A program made the position numbers and the translations under genes. DNA of 64,000 nt from the NCBI GenBank assembly GCA_946553025.1, contig CAMNRM010000003.1, positions 1-64,000 of the forward strand. The letters are read 5' to 3'. The stretch comes from an uncultured Clostridium sp. (lineage in GTDB: Bacteria > Bacillota > Clostridia > Lachnospirales > Lachnospiraceae). Below, piece after piece: positions 32,568 to 64,000 of the stretch (the first letter of the stretch is position 1; each line of letters opens with the position of its first letter). A model generated the notes under the pieces. The model was given only the letters and a program-made list of their open reading frames with translations. It searched no databases and had not been told where the DNA came from.

Positions 32568-32602
32568 GGGAAAAACAGGATGTAAGGAAAAAAGGAGAAA
32601 TT

Positions 32603-48507: not shown

Positions 48508-48531
48508 AAGATAACAGATAGTAATTAAAAA

Positions 48532-48601
48532 TTATACTTTATCGGACGAAGTCCGCCCATCCCGCTAGGGATTAAGTTAAGGGGTGCTTGGAAAGTATAC
48601 T
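48532..48601 (+). ncRNA. Repeated three-stem RNA-like element, copy 2
   Basis: Second copy of the element at 30229-30300. Stems: TATACTTT (48533-48540) with AAAGTATA (48592-48599), perfect; CGGAC-GAA-GTCCG (48543-48555), perfect; ATCCC-GCTA-GGGAT (48559-48572), perfect. The last stem differs from copy 1 at both arms yet pairs in both, which is covariation. It lies about 25 bases after agrC and 285 before the XRE gene. Confidence 0.6.
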
Positions 48602-48630
48602 ATATTTGATATTAATATTGTAGATAAAAT

Positions 48631-48693
48631 AAATGGCTCTTTTTTGTTAAGAATTTGAGAAATGATTATTCTTACTGAAAAGGAGCCATTTTT
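48631..48693 (+). terminator. Long hairpin, probable bidirectional terminator
   Basis: AAATGGCTCTTTTT (48631-48644) pairs with AAAAGGAGCCATTT (48678-48691), with an inner TTAAGAAT / ATTCTTA stem and T-rich ends. It closes the agrC transcript. The rest of 48694-48887 is AT-rich promoter-like DNA for the next gene. Confidence 0.65.
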
Positions 48694-48887
48694 ATGGCAA
48701 TATTTAAGGGGTAAATACTGTATCAGAACAATAGGCTAAATAATATAATCTGACCGTTAAATTTAAAATATTTTCTCAAAAAAATACAAATATAGAATTA
48801 TTTACTCCTATTAAGAGTAAAATAAAAGTTATAAAATGATTAAAATTAATTAAGATAAAATGTTAAAATATAACCGAGGTGGAATAA

Positions 48888-49232
48888 ATGAGAGAAAATA
48901 GAGTAAAAGAACTTCGGGAATCTATGCATTTGAGCCAGGAAAGGCTTGGTGAATATACAAATATTTCGCAGCAAGTAATTAGTAAGATAGAACGTTGTGA
49001 TTCTCGCCTGACAAAAGAAAATATGATTATTTTGGCAGATTTTTTTCAAGTATCTACGGATTATTTATTAGGGCGAAGCGGCTGTAAAAGGACGATTGAG
49101 CAGGAAATGGAAATGCTTAACAAATTTGAACTGTATGATGAGTTTATACAGGCATATGTTAAACTTGGTGAAAAAGGACGTACTTTGATTCGTCGTATTG
49201 CAGATATGATGATAGAATTGGGGCTTGACTGA
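48888..49232 (+). CDS. XRE-family transcriptional regulator
   Basis: A 114-residue protein with a Cro/CI-type HTH at about 5-60 (VKELRESMHLSQERLGEYT, ISQQVISKIER, FQVSTDYLLGR) and a short helical C-terminus. Gene order XRE then agrA-like then agrD suggests that it controls the quorum module or the element. Its stop lies before the GTG chosen for the next gene. GAGGTGG precedes the ATG. Confidence 0.88.
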   Translation: MRENRVKELRESMHLSQERLGEYTNISQQVISKIERCDSRLTKENMIILADFFQVSTDYLLGRSGCKRTIEQEMEMLNKFELYDEFIQAYVKLGEKGRTLIRRIADMMIELGLD

Positions 49233-49242
49233 GGTGGAAACT

Positions 49243-49950
49243 GTGTTTGATATAGCAATATGTGATGATGAACGTTACCAATTGGGTGAACTGGAGGAAA
49301 TGTTATGCAGCTTGGCAAAAAAGATGGGAATATATCTGGAAATTCATGTGTTTGAGCAAGGAGAACTTTTGCTTGAAGAAATTCGGCGGGGAACTCAATT
49401 TGACATTATTTATTTGGATATTGAACTGAATGGAATCAATGGGGTTAAATTGGCAGAGGAACTTCGTAAAAGTGACCAAACTTTACATATTATTTATGTA
49501 ACTCAATATGAAAATTACATAAAGAAAAGTATTAATACGATGCCAAGCGGCTATATTACAAAACCGATAAATGTAAATGAATTTGAAACTGTTTTTCGCA
49601 GAGTGAGTGGTTGGATTCAGGGAAAAGATGTGTATTATCGTTTTATTAGTGATAAACTCCCGTGTAAAGTCTTATTAAAAAATATTTTGTATTTTAAAAG
49701 TGATTTAAGACGGGTTGAGATTGTTTGTGAAGAACAAAAGTATAAGATTTATAAGAAATTGGATCAGATAGAGATGGAATTTACAGAATCATGTAAAAAT
49801 CAGTTTTTGAGAATTCATCAGTCATGGCTTGTTAATTATAATCATATTAATCGTTTTGGATATAACTGGGTGGAACTGAGCAGCGGAGAATATTTACCAA
49901 TAAGCCGAAAAAGACGAGGAAAAATTGAAGAAATACTTGGGAAAATATAA
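49243..49950 (+). CDS. agrA: AgrA-like LytTR response regulator
   Basis: The GTG at 49243 has GAGGTGG 5 bases upstream; 235 residues. The receiver domain has ICDDE and the phospho-acceptor in IIYLDIELNGI; YITKPI supplies the conserved Lys. The C-terminal LytTR domain (about 135-235) includes RFISDKLPCKVLLKNILYF-like and FLRIHQSWLVNYNHI. It should be phosphorylated by the AgrC-like kinase and activate the agr promoter. A terminator follows. Confidence 0.9.
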   Translation: MFDIAICDDERYQLGELEEMLCSLAKKMGIYLEIHVFEQGELLLEEIRRGTQFDIIYLDIELNGINGVKLAEELRKSDQTLHIIYVTQYENYIKKSINTMPSGYITKPINVNEFETVFRRVSGWIQGKDVYYRFISDKLPCKVLLKNILYFKSDLRRVEIVCEEQKYKIYKKLDQIEMEFTESCKNQFLRIHQSWLVNYNHINRFGYNWVELSSGEYLPISRKRRGKIEEILGKI

Positions 49951-49980
49951 ATACAGTGTGCTATTTTTTAGATAGATTGA

Positions 49981-50012
49981 GGAGCGATTAGTTTTAATTG
50001 CTTCTTTTTTTA
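49981..50012 (+). terminator. Terminator after agrA
   Basis: GGAGCGATTA (49981-49990) pairs with TAATTGCTTC (49995-50004) with two G-U pairs, followed by a run of T. Confidence 0.75.
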
Positions 50013-50251
50013 TTTGTAAAAACTAAAGACATTTATTCCAGTCAAGTAGGGTTAGAACTTTATCTGACAAGCTGTGACAGTAACATGGAGTATTTGAGGA
50101 AGTAACAAAATGGGGGTGTCAGGACTTCCGAAATTTTTTGACTACAATGTGGGATTTGCAAGATAAAAAGTGGAGAAAAATTCTTTAGCTTAATAGAAAA
50201 TAGGATAAATATGTTAAATATTACATATTTTTTGCTATTTATGACATAAGA

Positions 50252-50280
50252 AGAAAACGGACGCTAAAATGGTGTATAAT
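50252..50280 (+). promoter_or_regulatory. Candidate promoter of agrD (good -10, poor -35)
   Basis: TATAAT at 50275-50280 lies 31 bases before the agrD ATG. At the expected spacing the -35 is AGAAAA, a weak match, which fits a promoter needing an activator such as AgrA. The 240 bases upstream hold no gene; they may hold LytTR sites but I could not fix them. Confidence 0.45.
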
Positions 50281-50311
50281 CCAAAATAAATTATACGGAG
50301 GTGAAAAAATC

Positions 50312-50467
50312 ATGAAAAAAACACAAAAAAACAAACGTAAATTCTCTTATGCAACGGTGAATGCTCTTGTTATGTGCCTGTGTGTTTATGCAGCAAATAC
50401 ACGCTGCGGCTGGCTTCTTCATCAGCCCGAAATGCCGGACGAGATGAAAAAATTTGGAAAGATGTAA
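50312..50467 (+). CDS. agrD: AgrD-like cyclic autoinducer peptide precursor
   Basis: A 51-residue peptide with GGAGGTG before the ATG. A basic amphipathic leader (MKKTQKNKRKFSYATVNALV) is followed by AANTRCGWLLHQPEMPDEM and a charged tail. Cys32 followed by four residues (G-W-L-L) predicts a five-membered thiolactone ring; the conserved Pro of the tail (HQPEMP) and acidic/basic end are as in AgrD. The exact N-terminal cut is unknown. agrB starts 5 bases after the stop. Confidence 0.88.
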   Translation: MKKTQKNKRKFSYATVNALVMCLCVYAANTRCGWLLHQPEMPDEMKKFGKM

Positions 50468-50472
50468 TATCT

Positions 50473-51045
50473 ATGGAAAAACTGGCATCTATGCTTGCGG
50501 AGTATATGAGCAGGCATAATGAGGGTTCAGCATTTTCTTATGATGTATACCGTTATAGCTTCCTGCTGCTTCTGGAAATGACAGCAGGAGGTATAACCGG
50601 TATCATTATTGCAATGTATATGGGTATTCCTATAGAGGCAATTATTTTTATCGGAGTATTTTTTTTGTTGCGATCTTATGCGGGAGGTCTTCATTTAGAA
50701 ACTTTTTTAAAATGCTATTTTGCCTCAACAGGAATTTTGTTCATCGCATTTTGGCTGATTAAGCATTGGAAGGCAGAGGTTTACGTTTCCGTTCTGTTGA
50801 TGTTGCTCTTTGGAGGAATTTTAATTGCATCCAATGGCTGTAATAGCAAAAACCGTTCGGTAAGCAGTAAAGAATCCGTATATTTTAAAAAGAAATTATT
50901 TTTGACAATGACTCTGACGAGCTGCTTATATCTTGTTTTTGTGATAATGGGATATGGCCGATGCAGTCTGGCCGTATCCCTGGCGGTTACGATATCAGGT
51001 TTGCTGATGGTGCTTGGAAAAATAAAGAATGAGAAAATTAAATAA
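50473..51045 (+). CDS. agrB: AgrB-like peptide-processing membrane protease
   Basis: The ATG at 50473 gives 190 residues; the frame is open upstream over agrD. Motif RSYAGGLHLETFLKCY carries the catalytic His74 and Cys81 of AgrB; about five membrane helices surround it. It cuts the AgrD tail and forms the thiolactone. Its 3' end overlaps the VWA gene by 17 bases, which couples the quorum module to the downstream cluster. Confidence 0.9.
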   Translation: MEKLASMLAEYMSRHNEGSAFSYDVYRYSFLLLLEMTAGGITGIIIAMYMGIPIEAIIFIGVFFLLRSYAGGLHLETFLKCYFASTGILFIAFWLIKHWKAEVYVSVLLMLLFGGILIASNGCNSKNRSVSSKESVYFKKKLFLTMTLTSCLYLVFVIMGYGRCSLAVSLAVTISGLLMVLGKIKNEKIK

Positions 51046-53065
51046 ATTTCTGGCATTATTGATTTGTATAATTCTGTATGGAATCATGCTGGCACAAAGC
51101 GCCTGGGCCAAAGAATATGTTTCTGTGAAAAGTGGCCTGGATGTAATTTTTGTCATGGATTATAGTGGTTCCATGAAATCCAATGATCCAAATGATATTG
51201 CTCAAGGCATGGTAAAAGCCTTTATTGACACCGTTCATGCGACGGATATTCATATAGGATTTGTCGCATATAATGATCAGATTTTATCTGCGACGCAGCC
51301 TTTACCGGTGAAAACAAATGAAGAGAGGCAGGCATTAAAAATGCTAATCGATAAGGCCGGTTATTCTGGAAATACGGACATTGGACTTGGGCTGCGTTAT
51401 GCTTATGATTTAATCCGTCAGAACAGTGAACGAAAGAAGGCAATCATTTTAATTTCTGACGGGGAGTCTGATTTGAGAGGATCGGCAACGGGCAGAGTAC
51501 TGGAAAATGCTTTGCAGGATATAGAATATGTAACCTCGGAATGTAAAAAAGAGGCTATTCCTATCTATTCGATTGCATTTGGAGAATATGATGGAAATGT
51601 AAAGTCTTTAGAGAAAATATCTGGTCAGACAGACGGCAGGATGTATACGGTAAAAAAACCGGAAACATTAATTCAGGTTTTATACGGTATTTTTGAAAAT
51701 AACATGGATTACCGTATTGAAAAAATCACTGATGGCATTTATGCGGCTGGTCAGCAGGATATTTTGGTGAAGCTGGATGAACCTTATGTGGATGAGCTGG
51801 ATGTCCTGCTCATCTCGCCGCAGGCCATTGGTTCTGTGGAAATTATCTATGGAGAAAAGAAAGCTGAAATTGTTCATTTAAAAAATTATGCAGTAGCGAA
51901 GATTGAGGATATTGATGAACAAATTAGAGAACTGGTAGTAAGAACGGAAACGGTAAGAAATCAGGAACTCCAGGTTTATTTACTTGCTTACCGCAATTTA
52001 ACGCCAGTACTTTTGACCGAACCTGTTATTAATAAAAATAGTTCGTTGACTTATCAGGTATATTTTAAAGATAAGAATGAAAATATCATTACCGATGAAG
52101 CGTTTTATCATCGTTTTTTTTATACCTTTGCTTTGTCGAAAAAGGAAGAAAAAGAAACTTTAGAAGCAGAAATCCGAAACGGAAGGATTTGTGGGGAGAT
52201 TATTCCTGAACATGCAGGAACTTATTTCCTGGAAGGAAGATTGGATGACCATATGGGAAAGGTGGTCTTTCCAACAATAGAAATTCAGGTTCGGAACCGA
52301 TGCCCGGAGGGAGAACTTCCCGCAAACGAAAGGTACACTATCTTAACGAAAGAACAAATAGTTCAATTAAGTAACTATTTTTCCGATCCAGATGGAGATA
52401 ATCTGACCTATAGCTTAAAAGAATTATCAGATAATACAGGTAATACCGGAACGAAATCTTTGCAGGCAGAACTAAGCGATGGAGTACTTCGGATTAAACC
52501 GGTAAAATCGGGAAAAGGAATGATTGAACTGGAGATAACCGATGGAGAAGCTGCTTTTACCTATACCTATGAAGCCGAAGTAATTCCCTTATGGAAAGCT
52601 TATTGGTGGGTAATTGTTTCCCTGGCTGTTTTATGTGCTGCGATATTCTGGAAGTTAAAGCATAAGGCTAAACCGGAATTAAAACAGCTTGTTGCAGATA
52701 CCAGAAAAAATCAATTCTGCGGAAGGTTGGATGCTTATTTTACCGTACAGCCGGAAACCGAAGAAGAAATTCCTCCATTATCGTTTTCCATGATACAGTT
52801 TATCGATAACAAGCTTTCTCTGGATCTTTTGTTTAAAGAATATCCGGAAACAATCGAAGCACTGGAACTGGATTCCATTTATCTGGTTGCTGATGAAGAA
52901 CGAAGAATGGTACTGTATCATGGTTCAAAAAGTTCAGTAATGATTGGGAATTCTATTGTATGTAAGGAAATCCAATACAGTGTAAGCTTTGGTGATGTGA
53001 TTTATATTACTTCACCAGACAGAGCCTATGATCTGGAAATTCATTACATTGCGGTGATTCAATAA
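51029..53065 (+). CDS. Membrane-anchored VWA-domain protein, first gene of the structural cluster
   Basis: A 678-residue protein. Signal peptide (about 1-27, LLICIILYGIMLAQSAWA). The VWA domain (about 36-230) has the MIDAS D44-x-S46-x-S48 (VMDYSGSMKS), SGNTDIGLGL and ILISDGESD, so metal-dependent ligand binding is expected. A beta-rich part with a cadherin-like segment (LSNYFSDPDGDNLTYSL) follows. A membrane helix near 525-545 (WWVIVSLAVLCAAIFW) leads to a ~130-residue cytosolic domain ending VSFGDVIYITSPDRAYDLEI, which resembles a degenerate FHA fold. It could carry a signal from outside the wall to the FHA/phosphatase proteins encoded downstream. Confidence 0.78.
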   Translation: MRKLNKFLALLICIILYGIMLAQSAWAKEYVSVKSGLDVIFVMDYSGSMKSNDPNDIAQGMVKAFIDTVHATDIHIGFVAYNDQILSATQPLPVKTNEERQALKMLIDKAGYSGNTDIGLGLRYAYDLIRQNSERKKAIILISDGESDLRGSATGRVLENALQDIEYVTSECKKEAIPIYSIAFGEYDGNVKSLEKISGQTDGRMYTVKKPETLIQVLYGIFENNMDYRIEKITDGIYAAGQQDILVKLDEPYVDELDVLLISPQAIGSVEIIYGEKKAEIVHLKNYAVAKIEDIDEQIRELVVRTETVRNQELQVYLLAYRNLTPVLLTEPVINKNSSLTYQVYFKDKNENIITDEAFYHRFFYTFALSKKEEKETLEAEIRNGRICGEIIPEHAGTYFLEGRLDDHMGKVVFPTIEIQVRNRCPEGELPANERYTILTKEQIVQLSNYFSDPDGDNLTYSLKELSDNTGNTGTKSLQAELSDGVLRIKPVKSGKGMIELEITDGEAAFTYTYEAEVIPLWKAYWWVIVSLAVLCAAIFWKLKHKAKPELKQLVADTRKNQFCGRLDAYFTVQPETEEEIPPLSFSMIQFIDNKLSLDLLFKEYPETIEALELDSIYLVADEERRMVLYHGSKSSVMIGNSIVCKEIQYSVSFGDVIYITSPDRAYDLEIHYIAVIQ

Positions 53066-53104
53066 AGAGAGTACGTAAAAGAAAATAAGGAGGAGTAGGG
53101 GCCT

Positions 53105-55273
53105 ATGGAAACCATCACGCAAACAAACCGGACGCTGCTGTTTGCAGAGATTAATCCGGAAAGGAATAACCTGCTTACGCTGATTGGCGATGTGCGGGGG
53201 AAAAGTAGTCTGGATGATGACAAAATAAAAGAGATTAATGAAGAACTGGTGGTGTCCAGTTTTGAAGAATTTCTTGAAAAATATGCACCGGTAGTTTATT
53301 CCTGGTGTGATGCAGCTGCCGGAGATATCCAGTACAGCCTTGTGCGGCCGGAAAATATCCCGGATAACTGTATTACCGAAATTCCATTAAATGAGAGCAA
53401 TGATTTAGTCAATATGTTAATTACCCTGCTGGATGCCAAAGGCGCCCAGGGCGTGGCAAATGTAGATTTTACTTTCAGCAACATCATGGATATGATCTCT
53501 CCAAAGAAAATCATGGAAGATATCCGCCAGGTGCGCAGGGAGATTCAATATACCTACGAAAAATATGCACAGCTGGACGATGAAGACCCGAAAAAGCTGG
53601 ATTTGGGCGATAAGCTGAACGACCAGTTTGAACAGGCCAGCCAGAACTATAACCATGTACTTGCCATGCTTCCCCTTGCCATTGAAGATGCAAAAACCCG
53701 TCTGCTTTTAGGCGATGGAGAAACCAAACAGAGAGGACGGGATTTCAAAGCTGGTCTTTTAAGTATGGGTGAAGACGGAGAACTGAAAATCCTGGAGATG
53801 AAGCAGGAGGAAAATACCCAGCTTGCCATCGTGGATGATAAGATTAATACGGGGTTAATTGAAGCATTTAAGGAAGACTACGATGCTTTAAACGATACTC
53901 CCTCTGATCATGTACGTGATTTGGTGGTGCGGACATTCTGCCCGTTAAGTTCCACCATGGAAAGTATTGTTGATCGGGAAGCTGAGGTTCGCAATTACAA
54001 CCAATATCTGGAGTTTTATAAGAAGAGTAAAGATGATTTTGTCAAAGCCGTAAAACCTTTAATTGAAAAACTTTTAGGGGTAAAGATATTTTTTGACCAG
54101 TATCAGGTGAAAGAAAAAGGGATGCAGCCGCAGCTTTTAATTTCCAATATTTCTCTGGAAATGATGGTAAAGGCAAGCAACCTGCCAAGGCTTTTAACCT
54201 ACTTAAACACGACCAATGACAAGAACGAATTTGAAAACACCATATGGTTTGCCATCGTACCGGATGTGGAACTGAGTCAAAGCGGAGGCGGAAAGCTTCA
54301 GAGAATCCGTTTTGCCGGAAACCAGAGGCAGGAGAAGCCGGGAGCAAACTCTATAGAGAATTTGTCCATTCTGATGAATGCAATCCAGCCTTACCGGATT
54401 ACTACCTTCTTTAGTTTCCGTACCGGCGAAGAAACCACGTTTAATTATATTGCAACCGAAGGCGTGGGGATTTTTAAAGAAAAATGCGCACCATTGATGA
54501 AAAAAGAATACAGCGAGTTTGTTGTGCCGTGTATCCCGAATGCGACCATTATCCCCAAGGATAAATCGGGTCTGATTTTGGATAAGCGGATGGTCATGGA
54601 TGAGCATGGAAATGTGGCGCTTTCCAATGAAAAAGAAGATGTTATGAAGATGTGGCTGGAAGGTATTTACGTAGGTGCGGCTTATGAGGCAGCCGGAATT
54701 GTGGCAGCATGGCAGTGCCCGGAATATCTGAAAGAGAGATTTAATAATACCAGCCCGGAATACCCAGGTGTGCGCTTTGATGTGGAGGCAGATGATAATG
54801 CGCTTTTGGCAGCAACCAGTATGACCAAGGAGATTTCCGGATTTACAAACGCGATAAAAAACTCCATCAATCATACAGGCTTTGGCTTTGTCTTTAGTTC
54901 CGATAATGCACAGTATAAAGGAAAAGAAATTAAAAATATTACGGTTTATAAGGCCCGTAACCTGTTAAGCAATGGAACAGAGTTTGAGCCGATTTATAAA
55001 ACCTTAGTTGTTACTTATATTGAGCGGATGCTGCGTTTTTACAGCAGTGACTTTAAGCAGGATAAAATCCTTAAATTTTTCAGCAGCAATCCAAACAGCC
55101 AGAAGAGCCGGTGGGATGCTGACCGTCAGCATATTAATTCAATCTTACAGGATGGAGATGAATTGGATTTCAGTATTGATGAAAAGTATGGCATCTGCAA
55201 TGTCCAGGTAACTTTTGCTAATACAACGAGAAATCTGAAAGTTCAGCTTACACGGAAAGCTGGAGATAAATAA
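53105..55273 (+). CDS. 722-aa protein of the tube cluster, possibly sheath-like
   Basis: GGAGGAGTAGG precedes the ATG. No signal peptide or membrane helix, so cytosolic. Helical regions lie at about 130-215 (IRQVRREIQYTYEKYAQL) and 260-350. The later half is mixed alpha/beta (PRLLTYLNTTNDKNEFENTI, WFAIVPDVELS; MWLEGIYVGAAYEAAGIVAA) and ends with an ERMLRFYSSDFKQDKILKFF helix followed by beta strands (CNVQVTFANTTRNLKVQL). The end resembles tail-sheath/TssC C-termini in layout, and it directly precedes two Hcp-like genes. The match is weak and there is no separate TssB-like gene. I do not recognise a named family. Confidence 0.5.
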   Translation: METITQTNRTLLFAEINPERNNLLTLIGDVRGKSSLDDDKIKEINEELVVSSFEEFLEKYAPVVYSWCDAAAGDIQYSLVRPENIPDNCITEIPLNESNDLVNMLITLLDAKGAQGVANVDFTFSNIMDMISPKKIMEDIRQVRREIQYTYEKYAQLDDEDPKKLDLGDKLNDQFEQASQNYNHVLAMLPLAIEDAKTRLLLGDGETKQRGRDFKAGLLSMGEDGELKILEMKQEENTQLAIVDDKINTGLIEAFKEDYDALNDTPSDHVRDLVVRTFCPLSSTMESIVDREAEVRNYNQYLEFYKKSKDDFVKAVKPLIEKLLGVKIFFDQYQVKEKGMQPQLLISNISLEMMVKASNLPRLLTYLNTTNDKNEFENTIWFAIVPDVELSQSGGGKLQRIRFAGNQRQEKPGANSIENLSILMNAIQPYRITTFFSFRTGEETTFNYIATEGVGIFKEKCAPLMKKEYSEFVVPCIPNATIIPKDKSGLILDKRMVMDEHGNVALSNEKEDVMKMWLEGIYVGAAYEAAGIVAAWQCPEYLKERFNNTSPEYPGVRFDVEADDNALLAATSMTKEISGFTNAIKNSINHTGFGFVFSSDNAQYKGKEIKNITVYKARNLLSNGTEFEPIYKTLVVTYIERMLRFYSSDFKQDKILKFFSSNPNSQKSRWDADRQHINSILQDGDELDFSIDEKYGICNVQVTFANTTRNLKVQLTRKAGDK

Positions 55274-55304
55274 TTATTTTTAAATCGCAGAGGAGGAAAA
55301 TAGA

Positions 55305-55733
55305 ATGGGATTACGTTTAAAAATCGAAGGCAGTGAGTCGATTAACCTGCGGGAAACCAGTATTGTCAATGTAAAGTTTGGAGCAGATATACCGCACGAT
55401 TCCAATGCAAGATCAACGGATCTTGGTTCCACGGTATTGATTACAGGAAAGATTCTTGCTGCTGTAGACGGTGAGGCAGCAGACGATACCAGCAAGATTG
55501 CAAAGTGGTCCTTAGTGCCGGCAGAAAATTCGGACTGCTATCGGAAGGTACAGATTGATGTTGTCAATGCGTCGCAGATAGTACGCCAGATTACGATTCC
55601 CAATGCTTTTGTGGTCGATTACGAAGAAGATTTTACCGATGCAACCGGAGCAGGAACCTTTAAGCTGTTAATTAAACAGAAGAAAGATAAGATGGTAAAC
55701 CTGAAATTTGAAGGCGGGTTTAGTGGAGAGTAA
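55305..55733 (+). CDS. Hcp/TssD-like tube protein 1
   Basis: A 142-residue all-beta protein with GAGGAGG upstream and no signal peptide. It begins GLRLKIEGSESINLRET and has SNARSTDLGSTVLITGKIL, YRKVQIDVVNASQ and NAFVVDYEEDFTDATGAGTF, then KKDKM. The C-terminal AFVVDYEEDF ... KKDKM pattern and the size resemble Hcp (TssD) of Bacteroidota type VI systems (AY..EYEEHF ... KK). Hcp forms hexamer-ring tubes. The identification is by eye and needs a fold search. A paralogue lies 112 bases downstream. Confidence 0.6.
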   Translation: MGLRLKIEGSESINLRETSIVNVKFGADIPHDSNARSTDLGSTVLITGKILAAVDGEAADDTSKIAKWSLVPAENSDCYRKVQIDVVNASQIVRQITIPNAFVVDYEEDFTDATGAGTFKLLIKQKKDKMVNLKFEGGFSGE

Positions 55734-55845
55734 ATTTGGATAAAGGTCAAAATGTTTTGCAGATTCAGAGCATTTTGTAAAGGAAGAAAAGAGTACAGAT
55801 TATTTACAGGTGATTTTATGATAAAAAAGGAAGGCAGGAGAAACT

Positions 55846-56274
55846 ATGGGATTCAAATTAAAAGTAGAGGGACCATCAACGATTGAACTGGGAACCACGA
55901 TTATTACCGGTGTAAAATTCCGCACAGATATTCCACATGACAGCAATGCCCGTTCTACGGATATGGGCAGTACTGTGACGATTACCGGAAAAATCCTGAC
56001 CGCTGTAGATGGCGATCCCTTTGACAGTACCAGGCAGCTTGGCCTGTGGGCTTTAGTTCCGGCAGAGAAGTCCGATTGCTACCGGAAGGTGAGTGTGGAA
56101 GTTATTGCAGCTTCTCAGGTGGTGCGGAAATATACCTATCCTAATGCCTTTGTTGTGGATTATAAAGAAGATTACGGCGATGTAGAAGGCGTGGGAACAT
56201 TTACGTTAATCATTAAGCAGAAAAAAGATAAGATGGCGCAGGTTGCAGTAGAGGGTGGATACAGCGTATCATAA
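55846..56274 (+). CDS. Hcp/TssD-like tube protein 2
   Basis: A 142-residue paralogue of the preceding protein, about half identical by eye: GFKLKVEGPSTIELGTT, SNARSTDMGSTVTITGKIL, CYRKVSVEVIAASQVV, NAFVVDYKEDYGDVEGVGTF and KQKKDKM. Identical length and spacing with no gaps indicate duplication followed by divergence, so the two may make a mixed tube or alternate rings. AGGCAGGAG precedes the ATG. A terminator-like hairpin follows, which would let the structural genes be made in excess over the regulatory genes. Confidence 0.6.
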   Translation: MGFKLKVEGPSTIELGTTIITGVKFRTDIPHDSNARSTDMGSTVTITGKILTAVDGDPFDSTRQLGLWALVPAEKSDCYRKVSVEVIAASQVVRKYTYPNAFVVDYKEDYGDVEGVGTFTLIIKQKKDKMAQVAVEGGYSVS

Positions 56275-56324
56275 ACGATTTTCGATACCCTGATGGGTAA
56301 AAGCAGCTAAAGCGAAGGATTGAG

Positions 56325-56350
56325 GGCTGCCTGTCTCCAGGCGGCCTTTT
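56325..56350 (+). terminator. Terminator/attenuator between tube genes and signalling genes
   Basis: GGCTGCCTG (56325-56333) pairs with CAGGCGGCC (56338-56346), one G-U, followed by TTTT. The short T run suggests partial termination. Confidence 0.6.
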
Positions 56351-56371
56351 GTCATAGGGGCAGATGAAAAA

Positions 56372-56770
56372 ATGAAGGATTACTATGCCATACTGGGAGT
56401 TAAAGAAAGTGCCGGTGCACAGGAGATTAAAAAAGCCTACCGGCAGTTGGTCAAGATTTATCACCCGGATGTTGTCAGGGAAGATAAAGAAAAAATCCAG
56501 CGGATGTACGCAATTCAGGAAGCTTATCAGTGTTTAAGTAAAGAGGAGAGCCGAAAGAAATACGATGAATCCCGAAGAAAACAAGCAGAGAAATTTACAG
56601 GAAAAGTTACGACCTTTGGTTTTCAGGCGGGGAAAGGGATGGAAACGTATCGAGGGAAACCATCGGGAGAAAAAACAACAGCAGGTAAGGTACAAACCGA
56701 CGCATTGTTTTCTGCATTTTTCGGGCCGAAAAACAGGTCAAACACCGGGAAAAAAGGAGGCATTCGCTGA
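56372..56770 (+). CDS. J-domain protein (DnaJ-like)
   Basis: A 132-residue protein. The J domain fills residues 1-63 with the HPD motif at 31-33 (YHPDVVRED) and AIQEAYQCLSKEESRKKYDE. The remaining ~70 residues are basic and low complexity with no Gly/Phe or zinc domains, so it is a class C type. An Hsp70-like ATPase is encoded at 60880; the J protein would stimulate it. Its stop overlaps the next ATG by one base (TGATG). Confidence 0.88.
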   Translation: MKDYYAILGVKESAGAQEIKKAYRQLVKIYHPDVVREDKEKIQRMYAIQEAYQCLSKEESRKKYDESRRKQAEKFTGKVTTFGFQAGKGMETYRGKPSGEKTTAGKVQTDALFSAFFGPKNRSNTGKKGGIR

Positions 56771-57348
56771 TGGAAAAAAGCCGGAAAATAAAGATTGCTG
56801 CAGATGTGGTTATGCTGTTCTGTGGAGCAATTCTGTTTGCTGTCCTTCGCTATGATTCATGGTTCAAAGGGAAGGGCACTATAATTAAAGCGGGATTATT
56901 TCTGTGCATGGCAGTAATTCTGGCAGATTTGCTCTATCAGTCTTTTTTGCTAAAGTCTGCTTCCCCATCTTCCCGAAAGCTGCAGGAATCCGGGAAGGTA
57001 AAGGCTGGGCTGGGAATCGAACGTCTGATTCTCTTAGATGAGCAGAATAAGCCGGTAAAATCCTGGGATATGGAAGGAAGAACGGCAATGCTTATCGGTC
57101 GAAGCGGGGGCGAAGAAGATGTGGATGTAGATTTGGAAGATTGTGCCTACAGCAGCTTTATTGATTTTCTGCATGCTGCCTTAAACTTTGCGCAGGATCA
57201 GTGGTATGTGGAAGATTTAGGTTCTCAAAATGGAATAAAAATCCGAAAAGTAGTGGATGGAGAATGCTATAAAGTTATGGGACGGCCCTGTAAAGTTGAA
57301 GCAGGAGATATTCTTTATATTGCAAATACCAGGCTTCTTTTATCTTAG
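56770..57348 (+). CDS. Membrane-anchored FHA-domain protein
   Basis: A 192-residue protein, translationally coupled to the J-domain gene. Two N-terminal membrane helices (IAADVVMLFCGAILFAVL; AGLFLCMAVILADLLYQSF) place a C-terminal FHA domain (about 95-192) in the cytosol: AMLIGRSGGEEDVDVDL, SSFIDFLHAALNF (the S..H pattern) and YVEDLGSQNGIKI. FHA domains bind phosphothreonine. It probably gathers phosphorylated parts at the membrane. Confidence 0.85.
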   Translation: MEKSRKIKIAADVVMLFCGAILFAVLRYDSWFKGKGTIIKAGLFLCMAVILADLLYQSFLLKSASPSSRKLQESGKVKAGLGIERLILLDEQNKPVKSWDMEGRTAMLIGRSGGEEDVDVDLEDCAYSSFIDFLHAALNFAQDQWYVEDLGSQNGIKIRKVVDGECYKVMGRPCKVEAGDILYIANTRLLLS

Positions 57349-57405
57349 ACAACAGGTATGCTTTAAAAACCTAACGGAGTATATGGAGATGGGAGAACGG
57401 AACAA

Positions 57406-57903
57406 ATGAGTTTAGTAAGATGTCCGAATGGACACGTATACAACGCAAAGCGCTATGGAAAAATATGTCCTTACTGCAGCATGAAAAGCCAGGAGGAAAC
57501 CGCAGTGACAAAGCCGGTTGGTTTTGAACCGCCAGTGGAAATTTTAATGGAGGAAGTCAGGCCGGTGTGCGGATGGCTGGTTTGTATTGAAGGGGCCAGG
57601 GTGGGGATGGATTATAAGATTTTTAAAGGAAAAAACTTCGTTGGCCGAGGAGATGCTATGGATATCCAGATTCTTGGAGATAACGAAATTAATCGAAAAA
57701 ACCATACCATTATTGTTTACGATGACAAGAAGCTGAATACGATGATTTTACCTGGTGACTCTTCGGGACTGGCCTATTTAAACGATGAACCTGTATACGT
57801 TCCCACGGAGTTAAAGCCCTATGACATTATCAGTATGGGAAACAGCCGATTCCTTTTTGTCCCTCTGTGTGGAAGTAATTTTTCCTGGAGTGACGTGAAA
57901 TAA
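57406..57903 (+). CDS. Zinc-ribbon/FHA-domain protein
   Basis: A 165-residue protein with GGGAG upstream. Residues 6-24 hold CPNGH ... CPYC, a four-ligand zinc ribbon. The FHA domain (about 60-160) has KNFVGRGDAMDIQIL, NEINRKNHTIIVYDDKK and VYVPTELKPYDIISMG. Soluble. Together with the membrane FHA protein and two phosphatases it implies a Ser/Thr phosphorylation circuit, though no kinase gene is in the window. Confidence 0.85.
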   Translation: MSLVRCPNGHVYNAKRYGKICPYCSMKSQEETAVTKPVGFEPPVEILMEEVRPVCGWLVCIEGARVGMDYKIFKGKNFVGRGDAMDIQILGDNEINRKNHTIIVYDDKKLNTMILPGDSSGLAYLNDEPVYVPTELKPYDIISMGNSRFLFVPLCGSNFSWSDVK

Positions 57904-58031
57904 ACGATGTGGCATAAAAAATATGCAATAAAAGACGTAAAGGCATGAAATAAAAAAGTAAAAGTATGAAAGTATAAAAAACAAGCAGGACAAGAACCAG
58001 GCAAAGGTAAAGAAGGGGCGGGAAGCAAGAG

Positions 58032-58859
58032 ATGGAAGGAACGGGTTTTATTCGCCTGTTGGCAGCAATAGGCTTTGCGGGAGCAGGGATTATCCGTCTG
58101 CGCCCGTCACTGGTTGAACTGTTTGATCAAAGGGCGTTACCACTAAATGCAGGAATTTCGCAGACCACGGGAAATAAAGAAGTTCAGGCGGATCTGGCGA
58201 AGGTCGTGGCAACGAATGCCGGAAGGCTTGCTGTTCTTGCGGATGGAATCGGAAAGAAAAATACTGGTCAGGTGTGCGCTCAGATAGCCGTGGATGCGAT
58301 TTTAGATCAGTATGAACCATACCAGATATTAAATAACCCCGACTATTTGTTTAAGACGGCTTTTTATGAGGCAAATCGGCGGATTCAGGCAACCCTGGGA
58401 GAACGTTGGGGCGGTGTAAGTCTGGGTGTTGCTTTTATGAACCAGACACATCTGCACTATGCATTGGCAGGAAATATCCGGATAGCGCTGTTTCGCCACG
58501 GGGAACTGATTCCGCTGAGTAAGGGACAAACTCTGGATGTATTAGCCGAAGATGCATGGAAAGACGGAAAGATTTCCCGGCAGGAAGCTGTGTGGAGCAT
58601 GGAAGAAAGCCGGATGTGGAATTATCTTGGAATGGATGGTTTTCACGAAATTGAACTGTGCAGCTGTCCTATTCAGCTAAAGCCGCAGGACGTTGTCTTT
58701 ATGGCAACCTGTGGCATCTTTGAAGAACTTTCCTGGAGCGAGATAGAAGATATTCTGGCAGAACCGGGGAGTTTGCAGGAGCGGGCAGACGCTGTGATTC
58801 GTGCTGCTGAAGGAAAAGAAAGCAAAGAAAAAGAAAACGGAAGTGTAATTATCTTTTAG
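58032..58859 (+). CDS. PP2C-like protein phosphatase 1
   Basis: A 275-residue protein. An N-terminal hydrophobic helix (GFIRLLAAIGFAGAGIIRL) may anchor it. The PP2C pattern follows: RLAVLADGIGKKNTGQVCAQ (the DGxG metal site), GVSLGVAFMNQTHLHYAL, GNIRIALFRHGELIPLSKGQ and DVVFMATCGIFEELS, where usual PP2C proteins have SDG; here it is TCG, so one metal-binding Asp is missing. It may therefore be a weak or inactive phosphatase, or a phospho-binding regulator. It lies between the FHA and second PP2C genes. Confidence 0.7.
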   Translation: MEGTGFIRLLAAIGFAGAGIIRLRPSLVELFDQRALPLNAGISQTTGNKEVQADLAKVVATNAGRLAVLADGIGKKNTGQVCAQIAVDAILDQYEPYQILNNPDYLFKTAFYEANRRIQATLGERWGGVSLGVAFMNQTHLHYALAGNIRIALFRHGELIPLSKGQTLDVLAEDAWKDGKISRQEAVWSMEESRMWNYLGMDGFHEIELCSCPIQLKPQDVVFMATCGIFEELSWSEIEDILAEPGSLQERADAVIRAAEGKESKEKENGSVIIF

Positions 58860-58930
58860 GAATGTGCGGATAACAGGAAAGAGATTAATATCTCACAAGG
58901 ATAATCCATACAAGCCGCACGGAGGAGAAC

Positions 58931-60730
58931 ATGAGAAGAATCAATTCGGAGTTTAAGACCGTCAATATGTCCGAAGAGGGGCAAAAACTATCCAATCGGG
59001 ATTATTTTGGCTATGTGGAAATGGATGATTTTGCCTGTTACGTCCTGGCCGACAGTCTGGATGAAGAACCATCGGTAAACAGTGCAAAAATGGTGGTTGA
59101 AAGTATTATCCGCGATTTTACCGAAGCCCCGTCGATGCGAAAAGGGCGATGGAAAAGGTGGATGCATCGGGCGCATACCGAATTGATAAAGCAGAGAAGC
59201 GGGATGCATTTAAAAGCATCCGCTGTCATTGTCGTTACCGATTACCGGAAAATTCGCTATATTTACGTAGGAAACAGCCGCTATTATCTTATCCGCAATG
59301 CCAGAATACTGGAGCGGACAACCGATCAGTCATTGACACAAAACCTTGCCGAAGCCGGGAAAATCCCTCTGGATCAGGCTGCTGCCCATGAAGAACGAAA
59401 TAACCTGTATTCCTTTCTTGGAGAACGGGGAACACCGAAAATACAGCTTTCCCGAAAGAGAAAACTGGAAAGCGGAGATGTCTTTTTGCTGTTAAGCCGG
59501 GGCGTATGGGAGCAGTGTCCGGACGAGGAACTGCTGGAGATGATTAATACAGCAAAAGAACCAGCAGAGGTTTTACATCAGGCCGAAGATTTCATTCTCG
59601 GACACCAGGAAAGTAAGGAAATTGATAATTACACCATGGCAGTTACCTTTGTCCAGAAGGTTTACCAATCCCCGAAAAAGCCGTGGACGGTGAAAAAGAT
59701 ACTGATGATTGTACTTCCTATTTTGCTTATTGTGGGAGGAATTAGTCTGGGGCTGTATCTGCGCTGTCGCAGAATTCGGCAAAAAGAGGAAAAACTGGCA
59801 GAATGTATGGAGAGCGGGGAGGATTATCTTAGGTATGACAATTACCAGAGGGCCGCAGAAGAGTTTGGGGAGGCAAAGACACTGGCTGAAAGCTTACGAA
59901 AAAATGAGGAATCGGATCGGGCGGATCAATATAAAAAGCTTGCCGAACAGATTATGTTATCCGATGAAGCATTGGCAGCCAAAGAATATGAAAAGGCACA
60001 GGAACTGTATCTGAAAGCCAGGGAAATGGCAGAAGAAGCGGGAAATGTGGGAAAAGTTTATATTGAACATCAACTGGAGCGAACTAAGGATTACATCGAA
60101 GTTTATGACTTGATTGCCATGGGGGAGAAAAAAGAAGAGTATGGAAATCTTACCGGTGCGATAGAAGCCTATAAAGAGGCAAAGACAAAGGCTGCTGATT
60201 TGTACTACAGTGAAGGAAAGGCTGAAGCCTTAGAAAAACAGGCCGCTGCTGAGGAAGTGTTAGAAAAAGCGCAGCTTGCCGATGAATCACGCCGGAAGGA
60301 ACAGGAAGAATCTGCTGCAGCAGAAGCAGCGAAACAGCAAAAAGAAGAAGAATCCGCAAAGGAACTGGAAAATCAGCAAAAAGCAAATGACCAGCAAAAT
60401 GCGATTGAATTAGAAAACCAGGGAAATGAGTTATTCGCCCAGGGACAGTATGACCATGCCATAACCTTTTATCAGGCGGCACAGACTATCTATATCCGGC
60501 TTGAAATGGTTTCCATGGCAGTAAACCTGAACCAGAAAATAGAAGCAGCCATGGCGGGAAGTGCAGCCAAGGCATCCAAGGAAGCGGAGGGAAAAGCAAG
60601 GGAAGAAGCAGGCACGATGGAAGCAAAAGAAGTTCCTTCGCAGCCATCAATAAACAGCAAAACAGAAGCCTCAGGTGCCGGAGTGAATGAAGTGCCTGCT
60701 GGGACAACCATGGGGAATACGCCTAATTGA
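58931..60730 (+). CDS. PP2C-like phosphatase with membrane helix and TPR-like repeats
   Basis: A 599-residue protein; GGAGGAG precedes the ATG. Residues ~10-240 follow the PP2C layout: FACYVLADSLDEEPSV (DGxG replaced), KASAVIVVTDYRKIRYIYVG, NSRYYLIRNARIL and DVFLLLSRGVWE, where the usual SDG is SRG. Key acidic metal ligands thus appear lost, so it is probably a pseudophosphatase. A membrane helix lies near 253-277 (ILMIVLPILLIVGGISLGLYL). The outer part (about 280-540) has TPR-like repeats (YLRYDNYQRAAEEFGEAK; YEKAQELYLKAREMAEEA; YDHAITFYQAAQTI) and coiled coil. It could pass outer assembly state to the inside. Confidence 0.72.
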   Translation: MRRINSEFKTVNMSEEGQKLSNRDYFGYVEMDDFACYVLADSLDEEPSVNSAKMVVESIIRDFTEAPSMRKGRWKRWMHRAHTELIKQRSGMHLKASAVIVVTDYRKIRYIYVGNSRYYLIRNARILERTTDQSLTQNLAEAGKIPLDQAAAHEERNNLYSFLGERGTPKIQLSRKRKLESGDVFLLLSRGVWEQCPDEELLEMINTAKEPAEVLHQAEDFILGHQESKEIDNYTMAVTFVQKVYQSPKKPWTVKKILMIVLPILLIVGGISLGLYLRCRRIRQKEEKLAECMESGEDYLRYDNYQRAAEEFGEAKTLAESLRKNEESDRADQYKKLAEQIMLSDEALAAKEYEKAQELYLKAREMAEEAGNVGKVYIEHQLERTKDYIEVYDLIAMGEKKEEYGNLTGAIEAYKEAKTKAADLYYSEGKAEALEKQAAAEEVLEKAQLADESRRKEQEESAAAEAAKQQKEEESAKELENQQKANDQQNAIELENQGNELFAQGQYDHAITFYQAAQTIYIRLEMVSMAVNLNQKIEAAMAGSAAKASKEAEGKAREEAGTMEAKEVPSQPSINSKTEASGAGVNEVPAGTTMGNTPN

Positions 60731-60751
60731 ATGCAGAATTGAACTGAAAGA

Positions 60752-60866
60752 GTAAACCTTCATGCGCCCATAAGTGGTCATACCACCATAAATAAAAGTC
60801 TGCCGGGCGCACTTGGCATACCTGAATTGATGCCGTCTATTCGGCGGCGGACTTTTAAAGTAAAGT
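60752..60866 (+). repeat. Conserved intergenic element, copy B (possible pseudoknotted RNA)
   Basis: Second copy of the element at 6176-6290. Stem 1: TGCGCCC (60763-60769) with GGGCGCA (60805-60811). Stem 2: 60794-60804 with 60846-60856 (AAAAGTCTGCC / GGCGGACTTTT, one G-U). The 5' arm of stem 2 lies in the stem 1 loop. An extra hairpin GTGGT-CAT-ACCAC is found only here and GGCAT/ATGCC is possible. It fills the gap before the Hsp70-like gene, about where a 5' leader would be. Confidence 0.7.
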
Positions 60867-60879
60867 GAGGAATGGACTA

Positions 60880-63384
60880 ATGAGCCAATATACTTATACG
60901 CTGCGGCCTAACCGCCCGGAAGAACCAGTACATACCTACAAGCGAAATGATCTGGAAAAAATGACCATGTTTCATTTGCGGGAGATCTGCAGAAAAGAAA
61001 AATTAGTGGTGACTTCCTCACAGCAAGGTGATAAGGAAAGCCTGATTCGCCTGATTATGCGCTTCCGTGGACAGAAGGAATATCGAAATATCCAGACCGG
61101 GTGCGAAGGAGGATTAGAGCGCCTTCAGGAATTTTTTCGGGATCATGAAATTCAGCTTACAAACCGGATGGCGATAACCTTGCCGGGAACAATTACGTTG
61201 TACCATGGAGCCGGAATAAATGAAATGGACAATTATCAGGTACAGTCCAAGGAAAAACTCTATGAGGGAAACTTGTTATTAATTGACGAAGTTTATCAGG
61301 TTTATACCTGTTTTTATCTGCAGATGCTTGAAGGAAAGATGTATCTTTTTAAAGGAAAAGATGTAGTCGTAAAACCTTTAGAAAAGCATCAGTATTTTAT
61401 CTTATATTTACCGAATGAACGAGATTCAGAATTTTTATACGACTGTTACTATGGGAAAAGAGCTTTTGTTCCCGGATATATGGAAGGGATTCGGATACCG
61501 CTTTTGGATATCCAGGAAAAAGAGATTATAAAAACAGAACTTCCTCTGATCATCGATTTGGGAAGTTCCAATACAACGATGGGAATTTGTCTGCCGGACG
61601 GAAGTACACGGACAGCAAAGATAAGGGGAACGGAGATTATCCCCAGTATGATTGGTGTTCAGAAAAAAGCGGGGGAGAAAACAAGCTTTTTATTTGGCTA
61701 TGAAGCAAAAGAATTCAATGAACAGAATTACCGGGATGAGGATGTAACGGTATTTTATGATATAAAACGATGGATCAGCGATCCTGAACGGACAGAAAGC
61801 GTTATCTTGCGGGATGGCTATAAATATCAGTTTTCCAGAAAAGAAATGATGCGGGCTTATCTGGAATACCTTTTGGATTTGGCAAAACAGCAGTTTAAAT
61901 GCAGCTTTACCAGTATTCAGCTTTTGGCGCCTATCCGCCATAAAGAAAAATTTCAGCAATTTTTCAAAAACCTGCTGCCGGAGTACCAGGTAAACTGTGA
62001 GCTGGACGAAGGCATGGCTGTTTTGTTTCATAGTATCAACCAGATGATTGCGCAGAAAAGTTATGATGAAAAACGATGGTATCATGCATTGATTATTGAC
62101 TGCGGGGGAGGAACTACGGATTTAACTTCCGGGAAATTTTGTATTGACAACAGCCGGGTATCCTACATTATTCAGCTTAAAACACGGTATGAAAACGGAG
62201 ATACGAATTTTGGAGGCAATAACCTGACCTATCGAATTTTGCAGTTGATAAAGATTCGGATTGCACAGAAGCTGGGATGGATGGGAAGTGAAGGCTCTAT
62301 TGGAGTTAATGAAAGAAACAGAAATATTGCTGAAGAAAATGAAAAAAGTACAAATGCAAGACTGGAACATTTATATCAGCAGGCCGAAGCCTGGATTCCT
62401 ACGCAGTTTAAAGCTTACGAAGAAAAAAGCAGAGAGCAGTATTTCCTGGTAAAAAATAATTATTATTATCTGTTTGAACTGGCAGAACAGGTAAAGAAAG
62501 CCTTCTTTCAGCCGGAATTTCGCTATGAATTAACCATTTCAACAAAACGTGAAGAGGGAAAGAAGGGGATATATCTGGATAAATGGAGATTATCCATTGC
62601 TCAACATGGACAGCTTGTTCCTGTGGCGGAACCGGTGGAGATTTGTCTGTACTTAAATGAGATAGAAGAAATTTTGCGGCCGGATATCTATGCATTGATG
62701 GAACGGTTTTTAAATCAGAAATTTGAACAGGGGAAGCTGCAGGATTATGAGATGATTAAACTGACTGGACAATCCTGCAAATCACGGCTGTTTACCGAAG
62801 CCTTAAAACAATATGTCCCTGGAAAGCTGATACAAAATACTAGGCAGGAACAGGATGGGACAGAATTAAAAATGTGCTGCATCCAGGGGGCTATGGCGTA
62901 TTTTTTAAACTGTAAGCTGGGGTATATGAAGGTTGAGCAGGATTACCAGGTGGGCAGCTTGCCTTATGAAATCATGGCTTATACCCATGAAAATGAAGAA
63001 AAAATCCTGATTAAAAGTTTGGATGCAGAGAACCATATCGGCTATATATCACGATTCCGCATAGGAAACCAGTTGGATCTGTATCTGAATGATGAGCAGG
63101 GAAACCGGCTGAAGACATATTACTTTGCCTACGATACTGCAAAATTTGAACAAACAACACAGGAAGAAATCGATAAAGCCTATGGAGGAACAGTTATCCA
63201 GGAGGAAACCGATGTTATTCTTGAAGGAGAAATGAAATTTTTTGTCTGGGTATCCAGAAAACGATGGGGTTTTGTGGTATTGCCGATTCTGCGGGATGGA
63301 GAACTTTTGTATAGGGGAGCAGAAACCTTCTTCGACTTTGAAGATGATACGTGGGAATTGAATTTTTTTGATGGGAGAAAGTGA
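60880..63384 (+). CDS. Hsp70/actin-fold ATPase with SAP-like N-terminal region
   Basis: The ATG at 60880 is chosen (GAGG upstream); 834 residues; GTG 60865 is possible. The N-terminal part (about 20-65, DLEKMTMFHLREICRKEKLV) looks like a SAP-type helix pair; about 65-215 is unassigned. The actin/Hsp70 fold begins near 225: IIDLGSSNTTMGI (phosphate 1) and IIDCGGGTTDLTSG (phosphate 2), then NFGGNNLTYRIL and MIKLTGQSCKSRLFTEAL. There is no usual substrate-binding domain; the C-terminal ~170 residues are beta rich. It probably works with the J protein at 56372 as an assembly ATPase for the cluster. It is larger than DnaK (~610). Confidence 0.8.
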   Translation: MSQYTYTLRPNRPEEPVHTYKRNDLEKMTMFHLREICRKEKLVVTSSQQGDKESLIRLIMRFRGQKEYRNIQTGCEGGLERLQEFFRDHEIQLTNRMAITLPGTITLYHGAGINEMDNYQVQSKEKLYEGNLLLIDEVYQVYTCFYLQMLEGKMYLFKGKDVVVKPLEKHQYFILYLPNERDSEFLYDCYYGKRAFVPGYMEGIRIPLLDIQEKEIIKTELPLIIDLGSSNTTMGICLPDGSTRTAKIRGTEIIPSMIGVQKKAGEKTSFLFGYEAKEFNEQNYRDEDVTVFYDIKRWISDPERTESVILRDGYKYQFSRKEMMRAYLEYLLDLAKQQFKCSFTSIQLLAPIRHKEKFQQFFKNLLPEYQVNCELDEGMAVLFHSINQMIAQKSYDEKRWYHALIIDCGGGTTDLTSGKFCIDNSRVSYIIQLKTRYENGDTNFGGNNLTYRILQLIKIRIAQKLGWMGSEGSIGVNERNRNIAEENEKSTNARLEHLYQQAEAWIPTQFKAYEEKSREQYFLVKNNYYYLFELAEQVKKAFFQPEFRYELTISTKREEGKKGIYLDKWRLSIAQHGQLVPVAEPVEICLYLNEIEEILRPDIYALMERFLNQKFEQGKLQDYEMIKLTGQSCKSRLFTEALKQYVPGKLIQNTRQEQDGTELKMCCIQGAMAYFLNCKLGYMKVEQDYQVGSLPYEIMAYTHENEEKILIKSLDAENHIGYISRFRIGNQLDLYLNDEQGNRLKTYYFAYDTAKFEQTTQEEIDKAYGGTVIQEETDVILEGEMKFFVWVSRKRWGFVVLPILRDGELLYRGAETFFDFEDDTWELNFFDGRK

Positions 63385-63424
63385 CAGGAAACTATAAATT
63401 GTGTGATTTAAAGAAAGGAATAGT

Positions 63425-63913
63425 ATGGAAAAGGAAAAAAGTATTGAAACAAAACAATTATTGATTAAAGGAAATATTATAAGTTGGGAAAATACGATGA
63501 TTCAATTATCTAATGTTTCTTCTATCTCTACTTTATCATTAGAACCATTGGAATTTCCTAAGGCTGTATTTTTTGTTTTTATTGCTGGTTTAATAATGAT
63601 GATGAAATTCAATGCGGGAATTGGTGTATTTATGTTAGTAGTATCAGTGGTATGGTTGTATAAGTGGTATACTGAAAATCAGCAGCGAAATTCAAAAAAA
63701 GCTTTGAAGATAGTAATGAACTCGGGATATAGTTTTTGTATAATTTTTAACGATCAAACATTTCTTCAGACCGTCTTGAAGATACTAAAGTTAATCTTTA
63801 TTGAAGGAGGAGTAGGAGAACAAAATATTGTAATAAATCTTCAGAATTCTAAAATAAGCGGAAATGCAAGTGTGTTAAATCATCTTAATGCTTTACAAGG
63901 AAGGAATATTTAA
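63425..63913 (+). CDS. Small membrane protein, DUF6232-like
   Basis: A 162-residue protein with AAAGGAA before the ATG. An N-terminal strand region (LIKGNIISWENTMIQLSNVSSI) resembles DUF6232; two membrane helices follow (FFVFIAGLIMMMKF; GIGVFMLVVSVVWLY), then a cytosolic-looking tail ending NLQNSKISGNASVLNHL. Its stop overlaps the next start (TAATG). AT rich compared with the upstream genes. Confidence 0.6.
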   Translation: MEKEKSIETKQLLIKGNIISWENTMIQLSNVSSISTLSLEPLEFPKAVFFVFIAGLIMMMKFNAGIGVFMLVVSVVWLYKWYTENQQRNSKKALKIVMNSGYSFCIIFNDQTFLQTVLKILKLIFIEGGVGEQNIVINLQNSKISGNASVLNHLNALQGRNI

Positions 63914-64000
63914 TGGGGATAAATATTAATATGGAAGGAATAAAAATTGGTGGAAATGCAGAAGTTTTAAATGATTTAATAGTTAAAGGTTCTTTAGATA
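63913..64000 (+). CDS. Start of another small gene, cut by the window edge
   Basis: The ATG at 63913 overlaps the previous stop. The 29 codons read MGININMEGIKIGGNAEVLN, then DLIVKGSLD. The segment resembles the tail of the preceding protein (SKISGNASVLNHLNAL), so the two may share a small domain. Function unknown. Confidence 0.4.
   Translation, partial: MGININMEGIKIGGNAEVLNDLIVKGSLD

Follow-up and report, generated by a model that had tools for sequence, protein, structure and literature searches.

The gene cluster considered here begins within the first 64,000 bases of contig CAMNRM010000003.1 (C3 below; 140,130 bases), which belongs to the genome of an uncultured Clostridium sp. of the Lachnospiraceae (4.87 Mb, 126 contigs). 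These 64,000 bases are called the window. We read the cluster, with a probability of about 0.82, as a membrane-anchored, type VI-like contractile injection system (CIS) for polymorphic toxins, adapted to a single-membrane cell. The module is real, conserved and widespread, and it most likely encodes a CIS that works like type VI secretion. Fold or profile matches identify a tube of the Hcp type, a VgrG-like hub, a DUF4280 (PAAR-like) tip and Rhs effectors that vary at their C-termini. A trigger would make the sheath contract, which would push the tube with its hub, tip and toxin across the cell's own wall and into a neighbouring cell. An original prediction, made from the letters of the window alone, had proposed a co-directional run of ten genes for a Gram-positive tubular or contractile assembly related to type VI secretion. 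All ten frames are present at the coordinates it gave on a single strand, the forward one, as are the window genes from 47194 to 51045 and at 63425..63913 described below; the assembly itself has gained support from the Hcp fold, a sheath-like model and a conserved gene order.

The tube is represented by two proteins of 142 amino acids (aa; 55305..55733 and 55846..56274), which are 63-64% identical to each other. Fold searches with their structure models identify the Hcp tube fold, with Bacteroides Hcp5 as the best match, in line with the Hcp-like tube originally proposed. The Pfam family TssD/Hcp matches them with E-values of 1.1e-3 and 0.044, both below its cut-off. The sheath candidate is a 722-aa protein (53105..55273), for which no relevant Pfam or NCBIfam family was matched. 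Its structure model (m8563c0768dd4) is poor, with a predicted local distance difference test score (pLDDT) of 54.7. When this model was re-aligned, the top 19 VIA rows were all contractile tails, type VI secretion systems (T6SS) or CIS, and resemblance extended to the sheaths of phages, the Photorhabdus virulence cassette (PVC) and the antifeeding prophage (AFP). The N-terminus aligns weakly with TssB, whose profile was the best of 18 and was not equalled by any of 100 shuffles. The fold searches led to Hcp and, on the low-confidence model, to sheaths, and not to the unrelated enzyme families that would have spoken against the original prediction.

Several results weigh against a contractile machine of this kind. 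The sheath model is of low confidence, and such models can yield meaningless matches. Plain Foldseek with the same model gave no significant match (the best was a T6SS sheath at E 0.35), and neither did a viral fold library. HHalign assigned the TssB match a probability of only 3% and did not detect TssC, and PF05943 (TssC) was above cut-off in none of 11 cluster genomes. The Hcp profile did not beat shuffles in HHalign (2 of 60 scored as high), and the baseplate candidates discussed below match no TssE, TssF, TssG or TssK profile there and have no convincing Pfam or PDB sequence match. DUF4280 occurs without the sheath in 5 of 98 relatives, and Streptobacillus notomytis carries sheath and DUF4280 with no Phage_GPD match. 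The HHalign negatives mean little, because the Hcp profile itself ranks only third (first run) or fourth (second run) for the module's Hcp family; since even this profile does not rise above shuffles, the method is weak at such a distance. The low model confidence and the missing Foldseek hit would also suit a non-contractile Hcp/VgrG tube with the 722-aa protein as a cytosolic scaffold, a very unlikely arrangement in our judgement; the re-alignment and the TssB-like N-terminus point to a sheath. Our preferred reading of the 722-aa protein is a contractile sheath in one chain, with a TssB-like N-terminus and a sheath- or TssC-like remainder, which the model and the profile match indicate and do not prove.

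Hub, tip and effectors are found when the contig is followed past position 64000, where VgrG-like hubs, a DUF4280 tip and an Rhs toxin gene appear. The original prediction had remarked that no ClpV, baseplate, TssB or kinase is in the window and had suspected an incomplete or different system; the absence is right, but its cause is the window edge, and some 0.9 kb beyond it the first of the hub genes begins. An inserted effector block opens with a 162-aa membrane protein (63425..63913; hydropathy scan) that stands alone in its sequence family, with no relative in the other compared Bacillota loci. The block continues with proteins of 119 and 196 aa, two VgrG-like proteins, of which the first lies at C3:64902, then a pentapeptide protein, one of 177 aa and the DUF4280 PAAR-like protein, and ends with a 2,442-aa Rhs protein with a VgrG-like start and a 128-aa candidate immunity protein. 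The two VgrG-like proteins match PF05954 (E 2.9e-8 and 8.1e-11), the second also a solved T6SS VgrG in the PDB (E 2e-5), and the VgrG of a divergent locus matches PF04717 (E 2.8e-10). The tip matches PF14107 (E 6.4e-20). Of 17 cluster genomes compared, 16 have DUF4280 (G082 and G106 seem to be the same genome), and Phage_GPD genes are present in 10 of 11.

The Rhs protein matches PF05593 (E 6e-87), and its start is Phage_GPD-like (1.9e-6, below cut-off). Six Rhs proteins of more than 2,000 aa have cores that are 40-61% identical across all 15 pairs, and no pair of their C-termini could be matched (0 at E 1e-5; for one protein without a detected core boundary the last 200 aa were used). Related cores with unlike C-termini are the mark of polymorphic toxins. 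In 5 of 7 cases a small gene follows 3' of the Rhs gene and may confer immunity. Polymorphic toxin ends with an adjoining immunity gene are typical of toxins against rivals. Both features speak against an intracellular contractile system that acts on its producer, as in the stress-induced cell death of Streptomyces; the available part of PMC12237407 provides a precedent for this in a Gram-positive CIS, but for the present locus we hold it to be very improbable.

How widespread is the module? A contig scan with the 722-aa protein found 45 loci, one of them a fragment, whose best segments are 47-91% identical to it; most share the same gene order. A lack of such conservation, which would have told against the original prediction, was not observed. 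Where enough sequence surrounds the sheath gene, Hcp accompanies it on the same stretch in 61 of 62 loci, each of the two FHA proteins in 56 of 59, the J protein in 53 of 59 and a PP2C-like protein in 53 of 58; these counts were made by profile on all frames, with the window included, the contigs L055/L061 and L057/L062 counted twice and the profiles trained on many of the same loci. Because Hcp, FHA, J, PP2C-like, Hsp70-like and VWA proteins recur near the sheath gene, their co-location goes beyond chance. Counting the genome of the window, 8 of 98 relatives have the sheath (interrupted by a stop in one of them), and so do 13 of 398 Bacillota genomes, which belong to 12 genera. Among Fusobacteriota it is found in 30 of 80 genomes, more than a third of the sample (29 without a fragment-only case). 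Within the 98 relatives, Hcp occurs in 7 and coincides with the sheath in all 7 (Fisher 6e-10), and 6 of the 8 sheath carriers have DUF4280 (Fisher 1e-5). The best tree of 31 sheaths contains two phylum label changes, only one of which is forced by well-supported branches.

The downstream families are similarly constant. Across 10 genomes, the Hsp70-like, 258-aa, VgrG, pentapeptide and 177-aa families are present in all, the 432-, 237- and 200-aa families in 9, DUF4280 in 8 and Rhs in 7. Five of the 10 keep the unbroken order Hsp70-like, 432, 237, 258, 200, VgrG, VgrG, pentapeptide, 177, DUF4280, and the loci L098 and L102 follow it except for extra small frames or genes not picked up. The window's own locus (L059) is rearranged, with the effector block ahead of the 432-aa gene, as are L099 and L103 in their turn. 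Two divergent Bacillota loci, L125 and L126, are reduced to a core of sheath, Hcp, VgrG, 177-type, 237-type and Hsp70-like ATPases; no FHA, PP2C, J or VWA genes were found in their stretches. Between these two, the 258-type occurs in L125 only and the 432-type, by profile, in L126 only; a 419-aa protein of L125 had entered the 432-type profile by position, which makes its later match there circular. L125 carries a fusion of DUF4280 with an AHH nuclease-like domain, the match to the latter lying just below cut-off. The window's genome also contains a second, incomplete copy of the module, without a sheath (G000:C43:17901-38378; L060, L069), which comprises Hcp, short J and FHA pieces, PP2C-like, two VgrG-like, DUF4280 and 432- and 237-type proteins.

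Could the locus be a phage remnant or an anti-phage defence island? The PADLOC candidate PDC-M21C matches the long PP2C-like protein (1e-10) and PDC-M61B weakly matches the Hsp70-like protein (0.0015), with no match for eight other proteins. No sheath relative was found in viral contigs (0 of 23 candidate stretches, searched with two peptide patterns only) or in plasmids, and phages gave one match at E 0.2; a PHROGs search also yielded nothing convincing. No capsid gene was noticed in the locus, and conservation is strong, with a mean column identity of 82% over an alignment of 31 rows. These observations make such an origin extremely improbable.

The VWA membrane protein (51029..53065; PF00092, E 6.5e-18) has, by hydropathy scan, a signal-like N-terminus, a VWA domain outside, one transmembrane (TM) helix at about 518-546 and a cytosolic tail. 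Its metal ion-dependent adhesion site (MIDAS) motif DxSGS is kept in 38 of 40 relatives, and it is the least constant part of the window, present in 41 of 56 loci. The same kind of scan predicts two TM helices in the first FHA protein (56770..57348; PF00498, E 9.2e-8) and one, at 251-280, in the long PP2C-like protein (58931..60730), whose TPR/helical region would presumably lie outside. Together these three may form an envelope anchor that replaces TssJLM. The one protein picked out by a TssL profile is a YadA/OmpA-type neighbour in L056; TssJ and TssM were not sought. The predicted TM helices in three conserved proteins also speak against a free particle of the tailocin or extracellular CIS (eCIS) kind that would be released by lysis and act at a distance, and the lists of conserved genes, which were read without a profile search, showed neither a lysis gene nor a long one of the tape-measure kind. 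In its favour, the 722-aa model resembles the sheaths of phages, PVC and AFP as well, PAAR proteins of various types, including DUF4280, serve eCIS according to the accessible text of PMC8651086, and CIS gene clusters are known in Bacillota from that of PMC11566945. We regard the free particle as unlikely.

The proposed injector may also carry a control set. Next to the first FHA protein lies a soluble one (57406..57903; PF00498, E 2.3e-4), whose CPNGH...CPYC start is conserved over 42 rows. The short (58032..58859) and the long PP2C-like protein match the NCBIfam Stp1-type PP2C family NF033484 at 3.8e-18 and 1.7e-19, below its equivalog cut-off, and the Pfam PP2C-type family at 1.8e-4 (below cut-off) and 2.3e-4. 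Across the compared Bacillota set, the long protein lacks the metal-binding Asp of the SDG motif in 44 of 44 cases and has Asn for the Asp of GDSR in 44 of 44; in the short protein the SDG Asp position is K in 29, R in 8, C in 6 and N in 2, at least 45 of 47 being non-Asp. The window genome's own Stp retains the SDG Asp. Both proteins are thus probably not active phosphatases by their motifs, and the Bacillota family may consist of pseudophosphatases. The genes of the window's cluster showed no kinase. A kinase-like gene lies directly before the Hsp70-like gene or one gene off in 6 of 9 fusobacterial loci (two of these 6, L143 and L148, are close relatives); three that were compared with Pkinase matched at 3e-39, 1e-22 and 2e-11, and one fusobacterial locus has an intact-looking PP2C. 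The phospho-control postulated by the original prediction has therefore gained partial support, from the conservation of the FHA proteins and from the kinases of fusobacterial loci; against it stand the degenerate PP2C-like proteins of the Bacillota and a window cluster in which no kinase was noticed. FHA proteins could gate assembly, joined by the kinase in the fusobacterial form. The fusobacterial loci L142, L143 and L148 have a kinase-FHA-PP2C set adjoining the sheath, and L143 and L148 a 292-293-aa Hcp-like protein. On the window's own contig, C3:118684-126201 holds a further FHA2-like gene and two PP2C genes outside the cluster.

The Hsp70-like ATPase (60865..63384), a core part with an N-terminal extension of about 230 aa, was recognised by its ATPase motifs and has only a weak DnaK match (NCBIfam, 0.0047). 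Among 41 relatives, the phosphate-2 and adenosine motifs are present in 40 and phosphate-1 in 36, and the gene was counted by profile in 52 of the 53 loci that extend far enough to hold it. As two divergent loci also keep it without FHA, PP2C, J and VWA genes, it stands nearer to the core than those four. The J-domain protein (56372..56770; PF00226, E 6.7e-21) has its HPD motif in 30 of 30 relatives. No AAA+/Clp family emerged when proteins of the cluster and downstream of it were compared with Pfam, a search that reached C3:81138 on this contig and took in no other part of the window's genome. Tentatively, the ATPase and the J protein may act together in building up or taking apart the sheath or the baseplate, which in type VI systems is the job of ClpV. 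It is conceivable, at rather less than even odds, that the loci form a distinct CIS class in Bacillota and Fusobacteriota in which a dedicated Hsp70/J pair, not ClpV, dismantles the contracted sheath or assembles the baseplate. We know of no Hsp70-type motor for contractile machines; it would be new. A second Hsp70-like ATPase of 994-1010 aa stands beside a DUF4280-bearing 594-595-aa protein in L125 (4595-7579) and L126, the latter with an additional DnaK-like 530-aa protein.

The conserved 432-, 237- and 258-aa proteins after the effector block (C3:77734-80510) may make up the baseplate. HHalign of module families against TssE, F, G, K, A, L and Hcp gave nothing convincing, with TssB alone standing out; its profiles excluded relatives below 0.75 or above 1.35 of the family median (below 200 aa in the 258-aa family). 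Pfam and PDB sequence searches with these three and the 200-aa protein were equally unproductive, a PPR match at 1.4e-7 containing no single stretch that passes alone. The 200-aa protein was also considered as an EagR/DcrB-type chaperone, for which the searches gave no support.

Directly upstream of the cluster lies a putative signalling set: an AgrC-like GHKL-type sensor kinase and candidate regulator (47194..48507; PF14501, E 3.4e-23), a small helix-turn-helix protein, possibly a regulator (48888..49232), an AgrA-like response regulator with a LytTR-like end (49225..49950), the last two by sequence reading, and an AgrB-like peptide-processing membrane protein (50374..51045; PF04647, E 1.9e-25). 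Among 34 loci whose sequence reaches 6.5 kb or more upstream of the sheath gene, the 7 kb before that gene hold the GHKL family in 12, the response-regulator family in 16, AgrB in 9, and either AgrB or GHKL in 15. Such agr-type peptide signalling may time expression in some hosts. A second helix-turn-helix, LytTR-like and GHKL-like set at C3:91495-93867 (L067) resembles, by eye, that at 47194-49950. Farther upstream, positions 22140-41706 hold a conjugation module, in which a relaxase, a type IV coupling protein and a VirB4-like protein are joined by a C39-type peptidase that shows a VgrG3-C-like match, and 7454-15733 a 2,759-aa open frame. That the system is borne by an integrative and conjugative element, as originally suggested, does not follow from these genes: the flanks differ among loci.

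How does the module compare with known systems? With T6SS of types i-iii it shares the Hcp tube (by fold), the VgrG hub, the PAAR-like tip, Rhs effectors, FHA and PP2C-like proteins and the fusobacterial kinase. It falls outside T6SS on two counts: a single 722-aa chain would stand for separate TssB and TssC, and no ClpV is found among the scanned proteins of the cluster. It further differs in its Gram-positive hosts, in that no TssE, F, G, K or L was recognised, and in a VWA protein and an Hsp70/J pair where TssJLM and ClpV would be expected. The extracellular and cytoplasmic CIS (PVC, AFP, Streptomyces and Anabaena) have a one-chain sheath, as in phages and probably in the module, and partly Gram-positive hosts; unlike them, the module has a membrane FHA/PP2C-like/VWA set and an Hsp70-like ATPase. 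The eCIS markers tape measure, AAA+ ATPase and phage-like baseplate were not noticed in its gene lists, where no profile search was made for them. A divergent homologue of the ATPase matches SrfB of the srfABC operon (PF07520, E 4.1e-7, just above cut-off), whose function is, to our knowledge, not settled.

As far as the accessible text of PMC11566945 goes, haloarchaea have a membrane-bound CIS with T6SS mode, which together with T6SS type iv resembles the module as read here, namely a type VI mode beyond the Gram-negatives that makes do with a minimal membrane anchor. The Cis1-Cis13-type genes of which it is built were not recognised in the module by Pfam scans, that text mentions no Hsp70/FHA/PP2C set, and the Bacillota CIS clusters described there, to which haloarchaeal Cis11 is nearest, have another gene make-up. 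Closest in its tip is the DUF4280 family, shared with Francisella IglG and other 'PAAR-like' proteins. Lays et al. 2016 (PMC5349215) described this domain in Gram-positives and raised a phage-like translocation system there, describing the tip alone and no machine. The available part of PMC8651086 reports Phage_GPD adjoining DUF4280 in Firmicutes as an 'unknown phage-like translocation system', with no conserved eCIS or T6SS genes seen nearby; the module now names candidates. Among the openly licensed articles listed (no preprints), titles and opening lines of abstracts gave no description of such a machine for Bacillota or Fusobacteriota; one may still exist behind a subscription or as a preprint. 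Both papers suspected a Gram-positive type VI-like machine from orphan VgrG/DUF4280 genes, and neither had the machine itself. The locus offers a parts list in culturable Clostridia and many Fusobacteriota, so that contact killing there becomes directly testable. If our reading is right, a spring-loaded, syringe-like toxin injector, akin to a weapon of Gram-negatives but found in Gram-positives and coupled to an Hsp70-type chaperone, takes a place about which earlier work had offered no more than conjecture.

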